NCBI GenBank assembly: GCA_001603905.1
Contig: LVAE01000030.1
Location: forward strand, 1 to 64,000
Length of the DNA: 64,000 nucleotides
From: Fibrobacterales bacterium Fibro_02
GTDB lineage: Bacteria > Fibrobacterota > Fibrobacteria > Fibrobacterales > Fibrobacteraceae
Direction of reading: 5' to 3'
The notes below the pieces were generated by a model. The model saw nothing but the letters and a program-made list of their open reading frames with translations, was not told where the DNA came from and made no database searches. Shown one piece after another: positions 4,806-39,579 of the stretch; positions within the stretch are counted from its first letter, which is position 1, and each line of letters starts with the position of its first letter. The translations under genes and the position numbers were made by a program.

Positions 4806-5795
4806 TTAGAGCTTGCGGATTTCGTCTTCGGTGAGCTTGGAAATCTGCATAACCTTTTCGATAGGGTCACCGAGGTCGAGCATCGCTTTCGCCATTTCCC
4901 GAGCCTTGTTCATTTCGCCTTCTGCACGTCCTTCTGCACGCCCTTCTGCACGGGCACGGACCTTGAGGGTCGCCAGATAGTCCAGTTCTTCTTCCGTCAT
5001 CACCATGTTTCTTGCCTGCTGTTTAAGGATGCTGTCTGGAGCAGTCTTTACAAGAAGGCGCTTGATCGCCTGGGCGATTACATCGTCGTTAAAGTCGGGG
5101 AGCGAGTCGGATTCGCCAGCGTGCTTCAAAAGCCAGAGCCAGCGGTCCTCGTCGGTCTCTACCTGTTCCATCGTCTTGTTGAACTGCGTCAGGTCGTAAA
5201 GAATATACTTAACCTTGTCGGTCAGCGTCAACCCCTTTTCGTTACAGATGCCCCAGGTGCCGCAGTAATCGTCCTGCTGTTCCAAGTGAAAATCGCAGAC
5301 CCAGATGGCGTAAGTGGGAGGAATTTCGTACCGGGAGACTTCACGCAGAGCGCGCTGCTCATCGGAGAGGTTCATTGCGGATTCCTTAAAGAATTCCTGG
5401 TCCCATTCGTACTTGCTCTGAAGCATGAAGGCGCTGTGCTGCAAAAGGATGCGCTCGATAAAGCGGCTGTGCTTTGCCTTCTGCATCTCTACATTGATGC
5501 TGTACCCGTTGGACGTTGTCGCGCGGATATCAAGGCGGAAGCTCTTGGATTGCGGGAAAAGGATGTTCACCTCAGTGTTCTTCACCGTAACGGAGACGAT
5601 ACGGTTCTCGCCCTTCAGGTGGAATACTCCGTTCAAGAAACTGACAAGAGCCTTGGGGTCGTTCAGGAAAACTTTGAACGCCACATCGTAGCGCGGATCC
5701 AGGTAGGTACGGGTCTTGATTATTTCGTAGGTTACCTGCTCCCAATATTCGCGGGACGCTTCCGCAAAATCGGGAAAAATGGGATTGATAGACAT
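4806..5795 (-). CDS. Rpn/YhgA-like PD-(D/E)XK nuclease family protein
   Basis: 329 residues with the PDDEXK_2 fold of the Rpn/YhgA family (transposase-like putative nucleases that promote DNA exchange). The opening DPRYDVAFKVFLND is diagnostic. D89 (in RLDIRA) and E103-x-Q105 (in VEMQ) fit the active-site D...ExQ pattern. The C-terminus is a charged helix with three RAEG repeats and a final KLTEDEIRKL helix. The start at 5795 follows AAAGGACATCT. An upstream extension of 41 residues is rejected because it crosses a perfect palindrome (5806-5821) and lacks family similarity. These genes are usually multicopy in Fibrobacter-like genomes. Confidence 0.85.
   Translation of the reverse strand: MSINPIFPDFAEASREYWEQVTYEIIKTRTYLDPRYDVAFKVFLNDPKALVSFLNGVFHLKGENRIVSVTVKNTEVNILFPQSKSFRLDIRATTSNGYSINVEMQKAKHSRFIERILLQHSAFMLQSKYEWDQEFFKESAMNLSDEQRALREVSRYEIPPTYAIWVCDFHLEQQDDYCGTWGICNEKGLTLTDKVKYILYDLTQFNKTMEQVETDEDRWLWLLKHAGESDSLPDFNDDVIAQAIKRLLVKTAPDSILKQQARNMVMTEEELDYLATLKVRARAEGRAEGRAEGEMNKAREMAKAMLDLGDPIEKVMQISKLTEDEIRKL
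4918..4953 (-). repeat. Three 12-bp tandem repeats inside the Rpn-like gene
   Basis: CCTTCTGCACG plus one variable base occurs three times in a row (4918, 4930, 4942). It encodes RAEG units in frame, so copy-number change would alter length without a frameshift. Confidence 0.8.
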
Positions 5796-5805
5796 AGATG
5801 TCCTT

Positions 5806-5821
5806 TGTCGCGTACGCGACA
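5806..5821. promoter_or_regulatory. Perfect 16-bp palindrome before the Rpn-like gene
   Basis: TGTCGCGTACGCGACA is self-complementary and ends 10 nt before the start codon, next to the ribosome-binding site. It could be an operator or an mRNA hairpin that limits translation. Confidence 0.5.
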
Positions 5822-6120
5822 GAAAAGGGGTGTAGCCCCCAAATGGGTTTATGAGTGATTGTGTGTGCGCCAAACCACTGTTTGGCGGAAGTCTGTCACC
5901 TTGCAGGAGGAGGCCCACTCCCGTGGTCGGCTGCGTCGCTTGCCGACTTTATACCTGCTTTCTTTAAACGCTAGGCGCAGATGGTGTAACATCCGGGCCG
6001 GGAACTCGCTTGCCTTGATATGTTTGGCATGTTTACCGCCGTCGTCCGGGTTGTCCAAATACAATTGGGAATATATAAAAATGCAAGACGAAAAGCAAGA
6101 GTGAGGTTATATTTACTCCC
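5822..6120. other. Intergenic stretch between the Rpn-like and PLD-like genes
   Basis: About 300 bp between divergent genes. No credible coding sequence is seen. A CCAAAC-cact-GTTTGG hairpin (about 5870-5885) and a second AT-rich TATATAAAA patch (about 6072) are present. The only clear signal is the -10 box at 6108-6113. Confidence 0.4.
6108..6113 (+). promoter_or_regulatory. -10 box abutting the PLD-like start codon
   Basis: TATATT ends 7 nt before ATG 6121, so transcription should begin at or next to the start codon, giving a leaderless mRNA. No Shine-Dalgarno sequence is seen. Confidence 0.55.
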
Positions 6121-6642
6121 ATGCCCACATTCACCAAGTACATCCAGAACGAGGAACATTATTCCGAGGTCATCGCGCGGATTGCGAAAGTCCGCGAGAC
6201 GTTGTGGATTGGCACTGCCGACATCAAGGATGTCTACGTGAAGCAGGATGGCGAATCGATGCCCTTGCTCGGGCAGCTGGCCGCACTCCTGAAGCGCGGC
6301 GTGGGCGTGCGGCTTGTTCACGCGAAAGAACCCGGCCCGAACTTTCGCGAAGATTTCGACCGCTTCAAAATTTTGGCGACCGACCTCGAACGCGTTATGT
6401 GCCCGCGGGTGCATTTCAAGATGATGATTTTCGACTTGGAGACCGCCTACATCGGTTCCGCGAACTTGACGGGTGCGGGTATCGGCATGAAGAGTAGCTT
6501 GCGCCGAAACTTCGAAGCGGGTATTCTCACCAACGACCCCGCGCTTGTGCAGCCCGCCATTGAACAGTTCGACACGCTCTGGATGGGCTCGCACTGCAAA
6601 AATTGTGGTCGCCAGGAATTCTGCAGCGACCGGATTAAGTAG
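6121..6642 (+). CDS. Single-motif phospholipase D-like protein, putative nuclease
   Basis: 173 residues with one HKD-type motif: H98-x-K100, D105 and G-S-A-N at 112-115 (HFKMMIFDLETAYIGSANLTG). Proteins with a single motif usually dimerise to build the active site and act on phosphodiester bonds, often DNA (Nuc-like). The C-terminus HCKNCGRQEFC (158-168) looks like a small zinc-binding knuckle. There is no signal peptide, so it is probably cytoplasmic. It sits in an accessory-looking stretch between an Rpn-like protein and an orphan TerD-like protein. Substrate unknown. Confidence 0.75.
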   Translation: MPTFTKYIQNEEHYSEVIARIAKVRETLWIGTADIKDVYVKQDGESMPLLGQLAALLKRGVGVRLVHAKEPGPNFREDFDRFKILATDLERVMCPRVHFKMMIFDLETAYIGSANLTGAGIGMKSSLRRNFEAGILTNDPALVQPAIEQFDTLWMGSHCKNCGRQEFCSDRIK

Positions 6643-6884
6643 AATAATTTGTAAAATGTCATCTTTTGACATTGGACTGAATGTATATTTGAAATACGAA
6701 AAAAAAGTTGGAAATCAATTTACTTTTTTTGATAAAAGCGCGATATATAAAGTAGAAGGCTTTTATTTGACAATGTAAACGGATTTCAGCGGATTTTAGC
6801 GAGTCATAGGCTGTTCCTATTTGCGCCCTCGCGGGCACGTCCTAAATTTTTACAGCTCGACTCGCAACTTTTTGAGGATGCATT
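6643..6884 (+). other. AT-rich gap before the TerD-like orphan
   Basis: About 240 bp, AT-rich near 6690-6780. No gene is evident. GAGGA lies 6 nt before the next start. Confidence 0.3.
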
Positions 6885-8801
6885 ATGAATCTTGAGCTCA
6901 TTTCGTATTTCAATGTTGCCTTGAGCAATATCGAGGGTGACGCGAAAGCTCTCTCCTTCGAAGAAGTGAACGCCGAGGCCGCCCAATATGGGTGGTTGGT
7001 GCATCCTGATTGCTGCAACTCCGATACCTTGCAGTGGGTCCGAGAAATTGCCAAGACAAAATACAACAAGACATTCTACAAGGAATGGGCGGATATCGTA
7101 TCCAAGACTCGGTTTGAACTCTTGGTGGATCAGCTGTGCCATTACGCATCGACCTACGGAACGGGTTTTACGGAGGGGGAAGGCTATATGCCGAACCATG
7201 ACGATATCGTCATCCCCTTCAAAAAGTTCAAGGTCATTTTGCCGTGCACTAAAAGGGAACTGTTCGACAAGTGCGCGGGGCTTATCAAGTCGGGTATCGC
7301 CATGAACGAGCAAACCCAGAAGACTTGCTCGGAATATGTCGTAAACGCTCTTGATGATTGGGGCGAATTCGGTTTTTCGATTGACGATGTGAAGAACAAG
7401 GAAGCGCAAGCGACAATTGCCGCCTTGACGGGTGTGTATCCGCAAGATGAATTTGCGTTGCTCCGTTGCCTGGTCTATCGTGCGACCGGTTCTACCATGC
7501 TTATCAAGAGCAAGGACGTCATTGCCTGCGTAAAGAAAAACGCGAGCAAGATTCCTCTTGGCGTTCTTTCCGATGCACAGCTTATGAAACTCTCCAGGAT
7601 TTTCCTTCGCTTTAAGCCGCTCTTTTTAGCCATGAAGGCGAGCGCAGACAAATCTCCGATTTTGAATCCAGATTTTATTGCTGCTGCTCGAAAAATCGGC
7701 GTTGAAGTTCCAGCTGAAACAGGAAAAAGAGTTTCGAATGCCTCCGTGGTGAATAAACTCCGTAAGCTTGCCGAAAAGAACCATACCCCTCTTGAAAAGG
7801 GCTTCTGGGAGACCGTTCTTGTCGAGAAGAAAAGCCTTGACGATATCAAGAAAAATGTTGCCAATATTTCGAATTTCAAAAAGGCGACGCTCATGCAGGG
7901 CGTCAAGATGCGGCTTTCGGGGCAGTCGGGGCAGTGCTACGTCATCCGCAATGGTAAATTGTTTGTGCGTGAGGGCTATGCCCCCAAAAATGACGATGCG
8001 TACTTGATGCAAATCTATACGATTCTCCATGATTCGCTAGTTGAAAGTCTCAAGCCGAAGGCCTGCACGGTTCGCTATCCGAAGGGTTTGAACATAGCAG
8101 TCCCTTCCAGCGAAAAGAATTTCATTGGCAATTACCCCATGGGAACTAGTGTGGATATGGGCGACGACCACAACGTTGTTGGAATCTATTGGCATAATGA
8201 TTGGGGTACGAACGATTTTGATCTCCATTACATGTCGCTTGACGGAGCGTCCTATGGTTGGAATGCACGTTATAGTTCCCAAAACAGCAAAAAAGAAAAC
8301 GTCATTTACTCTGGCGATATAACCAATGCTCCCAAAGGTGCGACGGAATTGATGTATATCGGCGGAAAGGCACCCGAAGGAAAGTTCGAGGTTTGCAGAT
8401 TTAGCGGAACAACGAATGATTCTCAGTTCAAGTTCTTTGTAGCCCGATGCGACCGTGCTTCGTTGGACTTGGATAAGAGCGAATGCGGCCCGATGGTGGA
8501 TCCCAATGATGTTGTGGCGGAATTCATTATTCCTGTAGAAGGGTATGAAAGGAAGAATATCGCGATGACAATCGATAATCGCTTTGTGCTGATGGACTTG
8601 AATATCGGCAGCGGAAGGGTTCCCACGCATGAATTGGAGAAAATTGTAATAGACAAGTTTCGCGTAAAAGTAAGATCTTTTCTAAATTTGAAGGAGGTTC
8701 TGGAAGCTGCTGGCTTTACAGAAGCCAAAAGCGACGATGACGAAGTCGGGCTGGACTTGACGCAACCGAGCAAGGACTCCCTCATCGAATTGTTTGCGTA
8801 A
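6885..8801 (+). CDS. Large orphan protein with a TerD-like segment
   Basis: 638 residues with no signal peptide or membrane helix. I do not recognise the N-terminal 400 residues, which are mostly helical and charged. Residues about 405-490 resemble the TerD beta-sandwich: a hydrophobic strand VVGIYWHN, an acidic DFDLHY, then IYSGDIT about 45 residues later, matching the W..DLD..H.GDN.T pattern of calcium-binding TerD domains. TerD-like domains occur in tellurite/stress and phage-response systems. A similar TerD-like tail exists in MXAN_6230/SCO0854-type proteins. The start has GAGGA 6 nt upstream. The match is by eye and needs a profile search. Confidence 0.6.
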   Translation: MNLELISYFNVALSNIEGDAKALSFEEVNAEAAQYGWLVHPDCCNSDTLQWVREIAKTKYNKTFYKEWADIVSKTRFELLVDQLCHYASTYGTGFTEGEGYMPNHDDIVIPFKKFKVILPCTKRELFDKCAGLIKSGIAMNEQTQKTCSEYVVNALDDWGEFGFSIDDVKNKEAQATIAALTGVYPQDEFALLRCLVYRATGSTMLIKSKDVIACVKKNASKIPLGVLSDAQLMKLSRIFLRFKPLFLAMKASADKSPILNPDFIAAARKIGVEVPAETGKRVSNASVVNKLRKLAEKNHTPLEKGFWETVLVEKKSLDDIKKNVANISNFKKATLMQGVKMRLSGQSGQCYVIRNGKLFVREGYAPKNDDAYLMQIYTILHDSLVESLKPKACTVRYPKGLNIAVPSSEKNFIGNYPMGTSVDMGDDHNVVGIYWHNDWGTNDFDLHYMSLDGASYGWNARYSSQNSKKENVIYSGDITNAPKGATELMYIGGKAPEGKFEVCRFSGTTNDSQFKFFVARCDRASLDLDKSECGPMVDPNDVVAEFIIPVEGYERKNIAMTIDNRFVLMDLNIGSGRVPTHELEKIVIDKFRVKVRSFLNLKEVLEAAGFTEAKSDDDEVGLDLTQPSKDSLIELFA

Positions 8802-8806
8802 GATTT

Positions 8807-8835
8807 TTAAGACAGGCATAGAATGTTCCTATATT
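8807..8835 (+). promoter_or_regulatory. Promoter in front of the permuted tRNA-like gene
   Basis: TATATT at 8830-8835 is identical to the -10 box of rpsU. A weak -35-like TTAAGA lies 17 bp upstream at 8807-8812. The predicted start of transcription (about 8841-8844) falls where the 3' half of the tRNA begins. Confidence 0.55.
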
Positions 8836-8837
8836 AG

Positions 8838-8930
8838 TTCCCATTTGTTGCCGGTTCGAGTCCGGCCAGGGGTACGTGCCCCTGTAGCTCAAGTGGTAGA
8901 GCGATGGTTTTACATTCCGCCTGTTTTTTC
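8838..8930 (+). ncRNA. Circularly permuted tRNA-like RNA (3' half precedes 5' half)
   Basis: The first part is a tRNA 3' half. The anticodon-stem 3' strand CCCAT is at 8840-8844, the variable loop at 8845-8849, and the T arm GCCGG-TTCGAGT-CCGGC at 8850-8866. The acceptor 3' strand CAGGGGT is at 8867-8873 and A73 at 8874. After a CGT linker comes a 5' half: acceptor GCCCCTG (8878-8884), TA, and D arm GCTC-AAGTGGTA-GAGC (8887-8902). G26 and ATGGT (8904-8908) follow, then an anticodon-like TTTACAT loop (8909-8915). The acceptor strands pair over 7 bp, the D and T stems are perfect, and ATGG pairs with CCAT. Invariant U8, G18-G19 and TTCRA are present, and A15-U48 can pair. A GCGATG/CAT-tc-CGC hairpin plus T6 (8901-8929) may end it. 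It may be a functional two-piece tRNA-like RNA or a remnant of two tandem tRNA genes. Confidence 0.7.
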
Positions 8931-39321: not shown

Positions 39322-39579
39322 TAAAGCTCCTAAAAGGTAGACAAAACTTGATGGTTGATTCCCTAAGAAGCAGTCCAAAAGTATGGAACGCTTCCGAACC
39401 CTCGCGCTTCTTTTACGGAAAGTACCGCATTTCCACGGCGTAAAGTCTAGGGAGCCTAAAATATAATAAGTGGAAAGTAATAAGTTTGCGGGAAATGGGC
39501 GAAAAGTGGACTGAAATACAAAAAATAAGGATGGGCGGCATTTCTTTGATCTTTTTAAGGTCCATTTCTAACGAATTAA

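Follow-up and report, generated by a model that had tools for sequence, protein, structure and literature searches.

What does a transfer RNA (tRNA) written in the wrong order do in a bacterial genome? The question is raised by a window of 64,000 nucleotides (nt) from Fibrobacterales bacterium Fibro_02 (contig LVAE01000030.1, positions 1 to 64,000), the whole stretch of DNA analysed here. Downstream of a gene for a protein of 638 amino acids (aa) in this window, the 3′ part of a tRNA-like sequence precedes its 5′ part. The first-pass annotation interpreted this arrangement as a permuted tRNA gene at 8830-8930, with its own promoter and a terminator-like end, yielding a two-piece tRNA. The scrambled sequence instead forms the central part of a small, folded RNA, called RNA 2 here, which is paired with the adjacent protein gene and is not a tRNA gene. 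Together with RNA 1, a second RNA on the other side of the gene, it probably forms a ribonucleoprotein (RNP) resembling the Y-RNPs, built on a protein unrelated to Ro60.

RNA 2 contains most of a tRNA (Table 1). Between 8850 and 8902 the order runs from T arm to acceptor, CGT loop and D arm, and the stems are perfect. The acceptor consists of a 3′ strand CAGGGGT (8867-8873), A73 (8874), the CGT linker (8875-8877) and a 5′ strand GCCCCTG (8878-8884). Its outer pair, G1·U72, is a wobble, and U8 and A9 are present between the acceptor and the D arm. Inspection of the sequence thus confirmed the permuted order and the tRNA features initially listed (T stem, acceptor, U8, G18-G19 and A73). The complement of the anticodon stem is reduced to a short junction helix (CCAT 8841-8844 with ATGG 8904-8907). 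When the mimic is re-ordered into the normal arrangement, ARAGORN folds it as a tRNA; its own anticodon loop is broken, and a clear anticodon is not restored. The element as it stands is missed by ARAGORN and by Rfam at the gathering threshold. The fold energy of 8805-8930 is -49.3 kcal/mol (z = -6.1).

An outer imperfect inverted repeat, AGACAGGC-ATA-GAATGT (8810-8826) facing ACATTC-C-GCCTGTTT (8912-8926), encloses the mimic and moves the borders of the element to 8810 and 8926; of the interval first proposed, the tRNA-like part stands. The T run at its end is also real, and what had been taken for a separate hairpin with T6 turns out to be one side of this outer stem, the 3′ strand. The TATATT box (8830-8835), proposed as a promoter, lies within TCCTATATT and overlaps the UCCUAU motif. 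Since almost every related RNA again has the UCCU(A/U)U part of that motif, the box says little about a transcription start at this point.

A permissive Rfam search matched 8842-8906 to YrlA (RF02553) with an E-value of 9e-10; its score, 47.2 bits, falls short of the 69-bit cut-off. YrlA is a bacterial Y RNA and a tRNA mimic. It carries the same permuted tRNA-like module, which the statement that permuted tRNA genes were undescribed in bacteria had overlooked. The match is confined to the tRNA module of the model (positions 23-85) and leaves the Ro-binding outer stem unaligned. This indicates that the module of RNA 2 is of YrlA type and that its outer stem is not that of YrlA. The YrlA score was not accepted as evidence on its own, since matches in other Fibrobacterota and in the tRNA array of phage S-CBWM1 look like tandem tRNAs read across a spacer. 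Weak matches that may have this origin were seen in four Fibrobacterota genomes (G055, G060, G053 and G040).

The neighbouring open reading frame (6885-8801) has no significant Pfam, NCBIfam, PHROG or PDB match, and none to TROVE, the domain of Ro60 and Rsr. Homologues with about 26-29% identity were retrieved by tblastn from the phages S-CRM01, S-CBWM1 and Phass-1. In the cyanophages S-CRM01 and S-CBWM1 they sit in large tRNA arrays, and in S-CRM01 a YrlA-type match lies just 5′ of the homologue, outside the annotated tRNAs. A family profile built from five members found 74 loci in genomes of bacteria and archaea, chiefly Bacteroidota with Chryseobacterium dominant, and 53 loci in viral contigs, some of them longer than 400 kilobases (kb); the single protein as query gave no match in the viral contigs. 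Among 196 genomes sampled evenly from the order to which one Chryseobacterium belongs, 11 have the full-length family, which marks it as an accessory system. Only two of 61 Fibrobacterota genomes encode the protein, the window genome (G000) and G006, and in both the RNA lies beside the gene. Outside Fibrobacter, the closest homologues come from viral contigs, with about 50% identity, a relationship suggesting that Fibrobacter probably acquired the gene from a phage.

The stem of RNA 2 follows this gene family. It occurs twice in the window, where RNA 1 (GCGAGTC-ATA-GGCTGT-TCCTATT ... ACAGCT-C-GACTCGC) and RNA 2 flank the 638-aa gene. Several hairpins sharing it were first recognised by eye in an intergenic region of S-CRM01. 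A subsequent scan for its common elements (a lower helix, an AUA/C internal loop, a 6-bp upper helix and UCCU) found the stem beside nearly every family gene. The family loci, more than 110 in Bacteroidota, tRNA-rich large phages and three Fibrobacter, carry one to seven such RNAs, mostly just upstream. Across 131 loci, a few of them near duplicates, strict matches numbered 197 in the sense orientation, compared with 3 antisense, 3 reversed, 7 complemented and 0 shuffled. Of 115 loci, 106 have the 5′ motif within 700 bases of the gene; upstream of it, 298 occurrences are in sense and 14 in antisense orientation. To avoid selection for pairing, 273 elements were chosen by the 5′ motif only; 173 of these have the complementary 3′ strand, whereas shuffling the stems between elements gave 50 on average and never more than 69. 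The motif-picked elements include 70 distinct upper stems. The link between RNA and protein gene is well supported. No Rfam family matched these stems at the seven loci tested. Two further observations concern individual loci. About 60-100 bases 5′ of the gene in L148 and L150, a stem missed by the strict scan has a conserved U·U mismatch in its upper helix. In phage Phass-1 (L072, 6855-7899), an array of six stems 3′ of the homologue is directly followed by a phage-encoded transfer-messenger RNA (tmRNA; 77.9 bits).

What the stems carry differs between RNAs. Most of those found are plain loops of about 58 nt. Others resemble the window element in holding a permuted tRNA, or have just a T arm with a short closed acceptor. 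Several permuted phage forms retain an anticodon arm (L155, L156 and L167), placing the break between the D arm and the anticodon arm; some permuted forms have none. When twelve permuted elements were aligned, RNAalifold predicted 26 pairs, 19 of which have changed on both sides, and 95.5% of cells are paired. All five covariation measures exceed those of all 500 shuffles and all slid versions. The permuted order is thus conserved with covariation in relatives. This pairing, the z score and the YrlA E-value lie far above chance. The earlier view that the fold is kept by selection and is not a product of decay was correct.

A reversed topology is found at over 40 Bacteroidota loci, where the stem, closed by a small loop of its own, is inserted after the D arm of a normal-order tRNA. 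The search for it returned 60 sense matches versus 12 antisense and 6 reversed. Two normal-order examples score 48.8 and 49.6 bits with the Rfam tRNA model. One stem-inserted tRNA (L104, 765-877) keeps a CAU anticodon arm, and its RNA might undergo charging or modification. Stem and tRNA core meet identically in the two topologies, with the opposite end left open in the normal-order form, and the two are circular permutants of each other. In a single case (L156, 3097-3212), a near-complete normal-order tRNA with an ACCA end lies inside the stem.

The protein partner would be of a new kind. A confident AlphaFold model from 54 sequences (pLDDT, the predicted local distance difference test, 85.6) is helical in its N-terminal part and rich in beta structure in its C-terminal part. 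In a Foldseek search, neither the full length nor the N-terminal part alone had a PDB match at E < 1e-3; low-scoring immunoglobulin-type beta matches of the full model were disregarded. Matches in BFVD are other poorly characterised phage proteins. A TerD-like C-terminal domain, which visual inspection and a single phage annotation had suggested, found no support in Pfam or PDB matches and is not claimed. Aligning the family profile with that of TROVE by hhalign gave a probability of 0.4%, the TROVE proteins coming mostly from genomes that also hold the family. By this comparison and the fold search, the protein is not detectably a TROVE protein, and TROVE homology was rejected.

The neighbourhood of the gene hints at tRNA repair or surveillance. 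An RtcB RNA ligase lies within the 4-kb flanks of 53 of the 74 genome loci; it precedes the family gene in Chryseobacterium and follows it in genera including Winogradskyella and Kordia. Two of these 53 ligases are distant RtcBs. In two related phage loci, a gene for a PNKP phosphatase domain adjoins the family gene. The rsr-yrlBA-rtcBA operon of Salmonella has the same RtcB association and responds to cleaved tRNAs, with the role of its Y RNAs left open (PMC7790460). Phage tRNA arrays and RNA repair have in turn been viewed as counters to host anticodon nucleases (PMC7824862). Taken together, these associations suggest a Y-RNP-like particle for tRNA repair, surveillance or protection. On contig C10 of G006 (L214-L216), the RtcB match is split into three pieces with short open frames, and the gene may be broken.

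In the proposed mechanism, the 638-aa protein would bind the conserved stem common to RNA 1 and RNA 2. The tRNA-shaped module of RNA 2, made up of T arm, closed acceptor and D arm, would thereby be displayed on the protein in the way that Rsr carries the module of YrlA. The module may dock, decoy or license a tRNA-handling enzyme, and the RtcB next door in Bacteroidota and the PNKP of the two phages suggest an enzyme of tRNA repair or surveillance. RNA 1, only 19 bases 5′ of the gene, might allow the protein to regulate its own messenger RNA, and a phage presumably carried the system into Fibrobacter. The balance tips slightly toward a broader proposal, in which these RNPs evolved independently as a second class of particle of the Y-RNA type. 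Such a particle would combine a protein family of unknown fold with a set of small RNAs of its own, whose tRNA mimics are circular permutants of one another (a permuted tRNA within a stem, or a stem within a normal tRNA), and would repair or protect tRNAs in phages and Bacteroidota.

Several observations weigh against this interpretation. Many of the RNAs have no tRNA part, so the mimic cannot be their sole function. The RtcB-linked loci belong mostly to one genus, Chryseobacterium. An RtcB match is absent from the window genome, which is 89% complete, and G006 has only broken frames; repair by RtcB therefore cannot be general. Neither a recognised RNA-binding domain nor a known fold is present in the protein, and 9 of the 115 loci lack the motif in a simple search.

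A permuted tRNA gene, with a transcript cut at the CGT linker into a two-piece or re-ligated translating tRNA, would explain why the acceptor, T and D arms, U8, G18-G19 and A73 are intact, why the re-ordered form folds as a tRNA and why three phage forms keep an anticodon arm. However, the whole fold is enclosed by a conserved stem that it shares with sister RNAs bearing only a T arm and closed acceptor, or no tRNA part, and other permuted forms dispense with the anticodon arm, while the broken anticodon loop of the window element yields no clear anticodon. Cleavage at the linker by RNase P and RNase Z, as first suggested, would call for a conserved site. In G006 (L002/L074), where the stretch is kept at 93%, the linker and the outer acceptor pair are gone (CAGGGG-GTT-CCCCTG) and G19 is changed to A, yet the six inner acceptor pairs are retained. 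In a third Fibrobacter (L075), the linker is kept and the junction helix is rebuilt from other bases. These changes favour a closed structure over a cut tRNA, and a translating tRNA is very improbable here. The alternative of a deletion scar of tandem tRNA genes, also raised at first, or of an attachment-site remnant, would fit the position of RNA 2 at the right end of an island bearing a transposase-like gene. It deserves next to no credence: island-free relatives run from YqeY (L004) or an acyltransferase (L005) straight into a nifA-like gene with no tRNA there, no tRNA of the genome qualifies as parent (the best matches the re-ordered mimic at 51 of 74 positions), and the permuted form recurs with covariation in unrelated phages.

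The stems might instead be solely cis-regulatory, as autoregulatory leaders or processing hairpins of tRNA arrays, and the modules decayed captures of phage tRNAs. Most elements do lie just upstream of the gene, and the phage copies sit in tRNA arrays. This explanation is nevertheless unlikely, as a locus can have up to seven copies, RNA 2 lies downstream of its gene, the modules covary in acceptor and T stems, and the two topologies arrive at the same join of stem and tRNA core. The YrlA model match, finally, could indicate a true YrlA bound by a Ro60/Rsr protein encoded elsewhere. That is quite improbable, given that TROVE (PF05731) is found in none of the 61 Fibrobacterota genomes, the window genome included, that the sub-threshold match excludes the Ro-binding stem, and that the stem type follows the new gene rather than TROVE. 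A Y-RNP-like particle with an unrelated protein thus accounts best for the locus.

Table 1. Features of RNA 2 and of the island around it (positions in the window).
Feature	Position	Strand	Remarks
RNA 2, structured RNA; permuted tRNA mimic within a putative protein-binding-type stem	8810-8926	+	
Lower stem, 5′ strand AGACAGGC	8810-8817	+	partner strand 8919-8926 (GCCTGTTT)
AUA internal loop	8818-8820	+	opposite single C 8918
Upper stem, 5′ strand GAATGT	8821-8826	+	partner strand 8912-8917 (ACATTC)
Conserved UCCUAU motif	8827-8832	+	overlapped by the TATATT box
T arm of the mimic	8850-8866	+	GCCGG/CCGGC 8850-8854/8862-8866, loop TTCGAGT
Acceptor stem, closed by loop with A73 and CGT linker	8867-8884	+	
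D arm of the mimic	8887-8902	+	has G18-G19
3′ strands of upper stem, C bulge and lower stem	8912-8926	+	T run after
RNA 1, 67-nt stem-loop with RNA 2-type stem	6799-6865	+	no tRNA part; 19 bases 5′ of gene
638-aa protein, proposed RNA partner	6885-8801	+	
PLD-like nuclease-type protein	6121-6642	+	same island; optional (kept in L075, absent in L074)
PD-(D/E)XK family transposase-like protein	4806-5918	-	left end of island

Elsewhere in the window, an Rfam Fibrobacter-1 RNA (91.3 bits) lies on the minus strand at 39361-39462.

The locus thus belongs to an apparently undescribed RNA-protein system of large phages and Bacteroidota that resembles Ro60 and its Y RNAs and uses an unrelated protein. 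The literature searched contains no description of the family; some key Y RNA papers fall outside that search, and the novelty is provisional. Ro60 with its Y RNAs is, to our knowledge, the only particle of such a kind described so far, and the role of bacterial Y RNAs and their tRNA mimics is still open. If the interpretation is correct, the family offers many small, tractable RNAs for asking whether such mimics guide repair, block anticodon nucleases or control tRNA enzymes during phage infection.

Several known systems share traits with this one. Some family members match the RING proteins of the MXAN_6230/SCO0854 family (NCBIfam NF041916, RING_SCO0854); the five matches probably reflect similarity in the C-terminal domain. 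The three actinobacterial loci examined (L144, L146 and L147) are relatives of the C-terminal part only and are without such RNAs. Permuted tRNA genes of algae and archaea likewise place the 3′ half before the 5′ half and are spliced into functional tRNAs (PMC3978253), whereas the window fold is enclosed in another stem and, judging from G006, would stay uncut. Two-piece tmRNA also combines a permuted gene order with a tRNA-like acceptor and T arm; in contrast, RNA 2 has no tag reading frame, a full D arm and a closed acceptor. Listeria phages (CKA15_055, P100 gp165) encode TROVE/Rsr-like proteins with putative Y RNAs, similarly from a gene near a tRNA array, and abundant small RNAs arise upstream of such genes (PMC12282133). 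Unlike the present family, gp165 has a vWA-type DVSGSM motif; it lacks profile similarity to the family, its RNA repeats follow another consensus, and the stem motif is absent near the Rsr-like gene of P100. Upstream of gp165, on the minus strand of P100 (L213, 38091-38720), three repeats with inverted-repeat flanks and the consensus CAGCAA(U/A)UACUA are candidate Y RNAs, perhaps corresponding to the highly transcribed regions reported for CKA15.

Another parallel is YrlA with Rsr/Ro60 in the Salmonella rsr-yrlBA-rtcBA operon. Both systems mount a permuted tRNA-like module on a stem, protein-bound in YrlA and putatively so here, and in both several small RNAs adjoin the protein gene; a link to RtcB is common to both as well, here at 53 of the 74 genome loci and not in the window genome. 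They differ in the partner, which here is not a TROVE protein and has no vWA motif, and in the stem, with its AUA/C loop, GU end and UCCU. Many of the RNAs described here also have other tops, and a normal-order topology exists besides the permuted one. A second system that shares the mimic and the RtcB link but has an unrelated protein would make a tRNA shape mounted on an RNA-binding protein a repeated solution.
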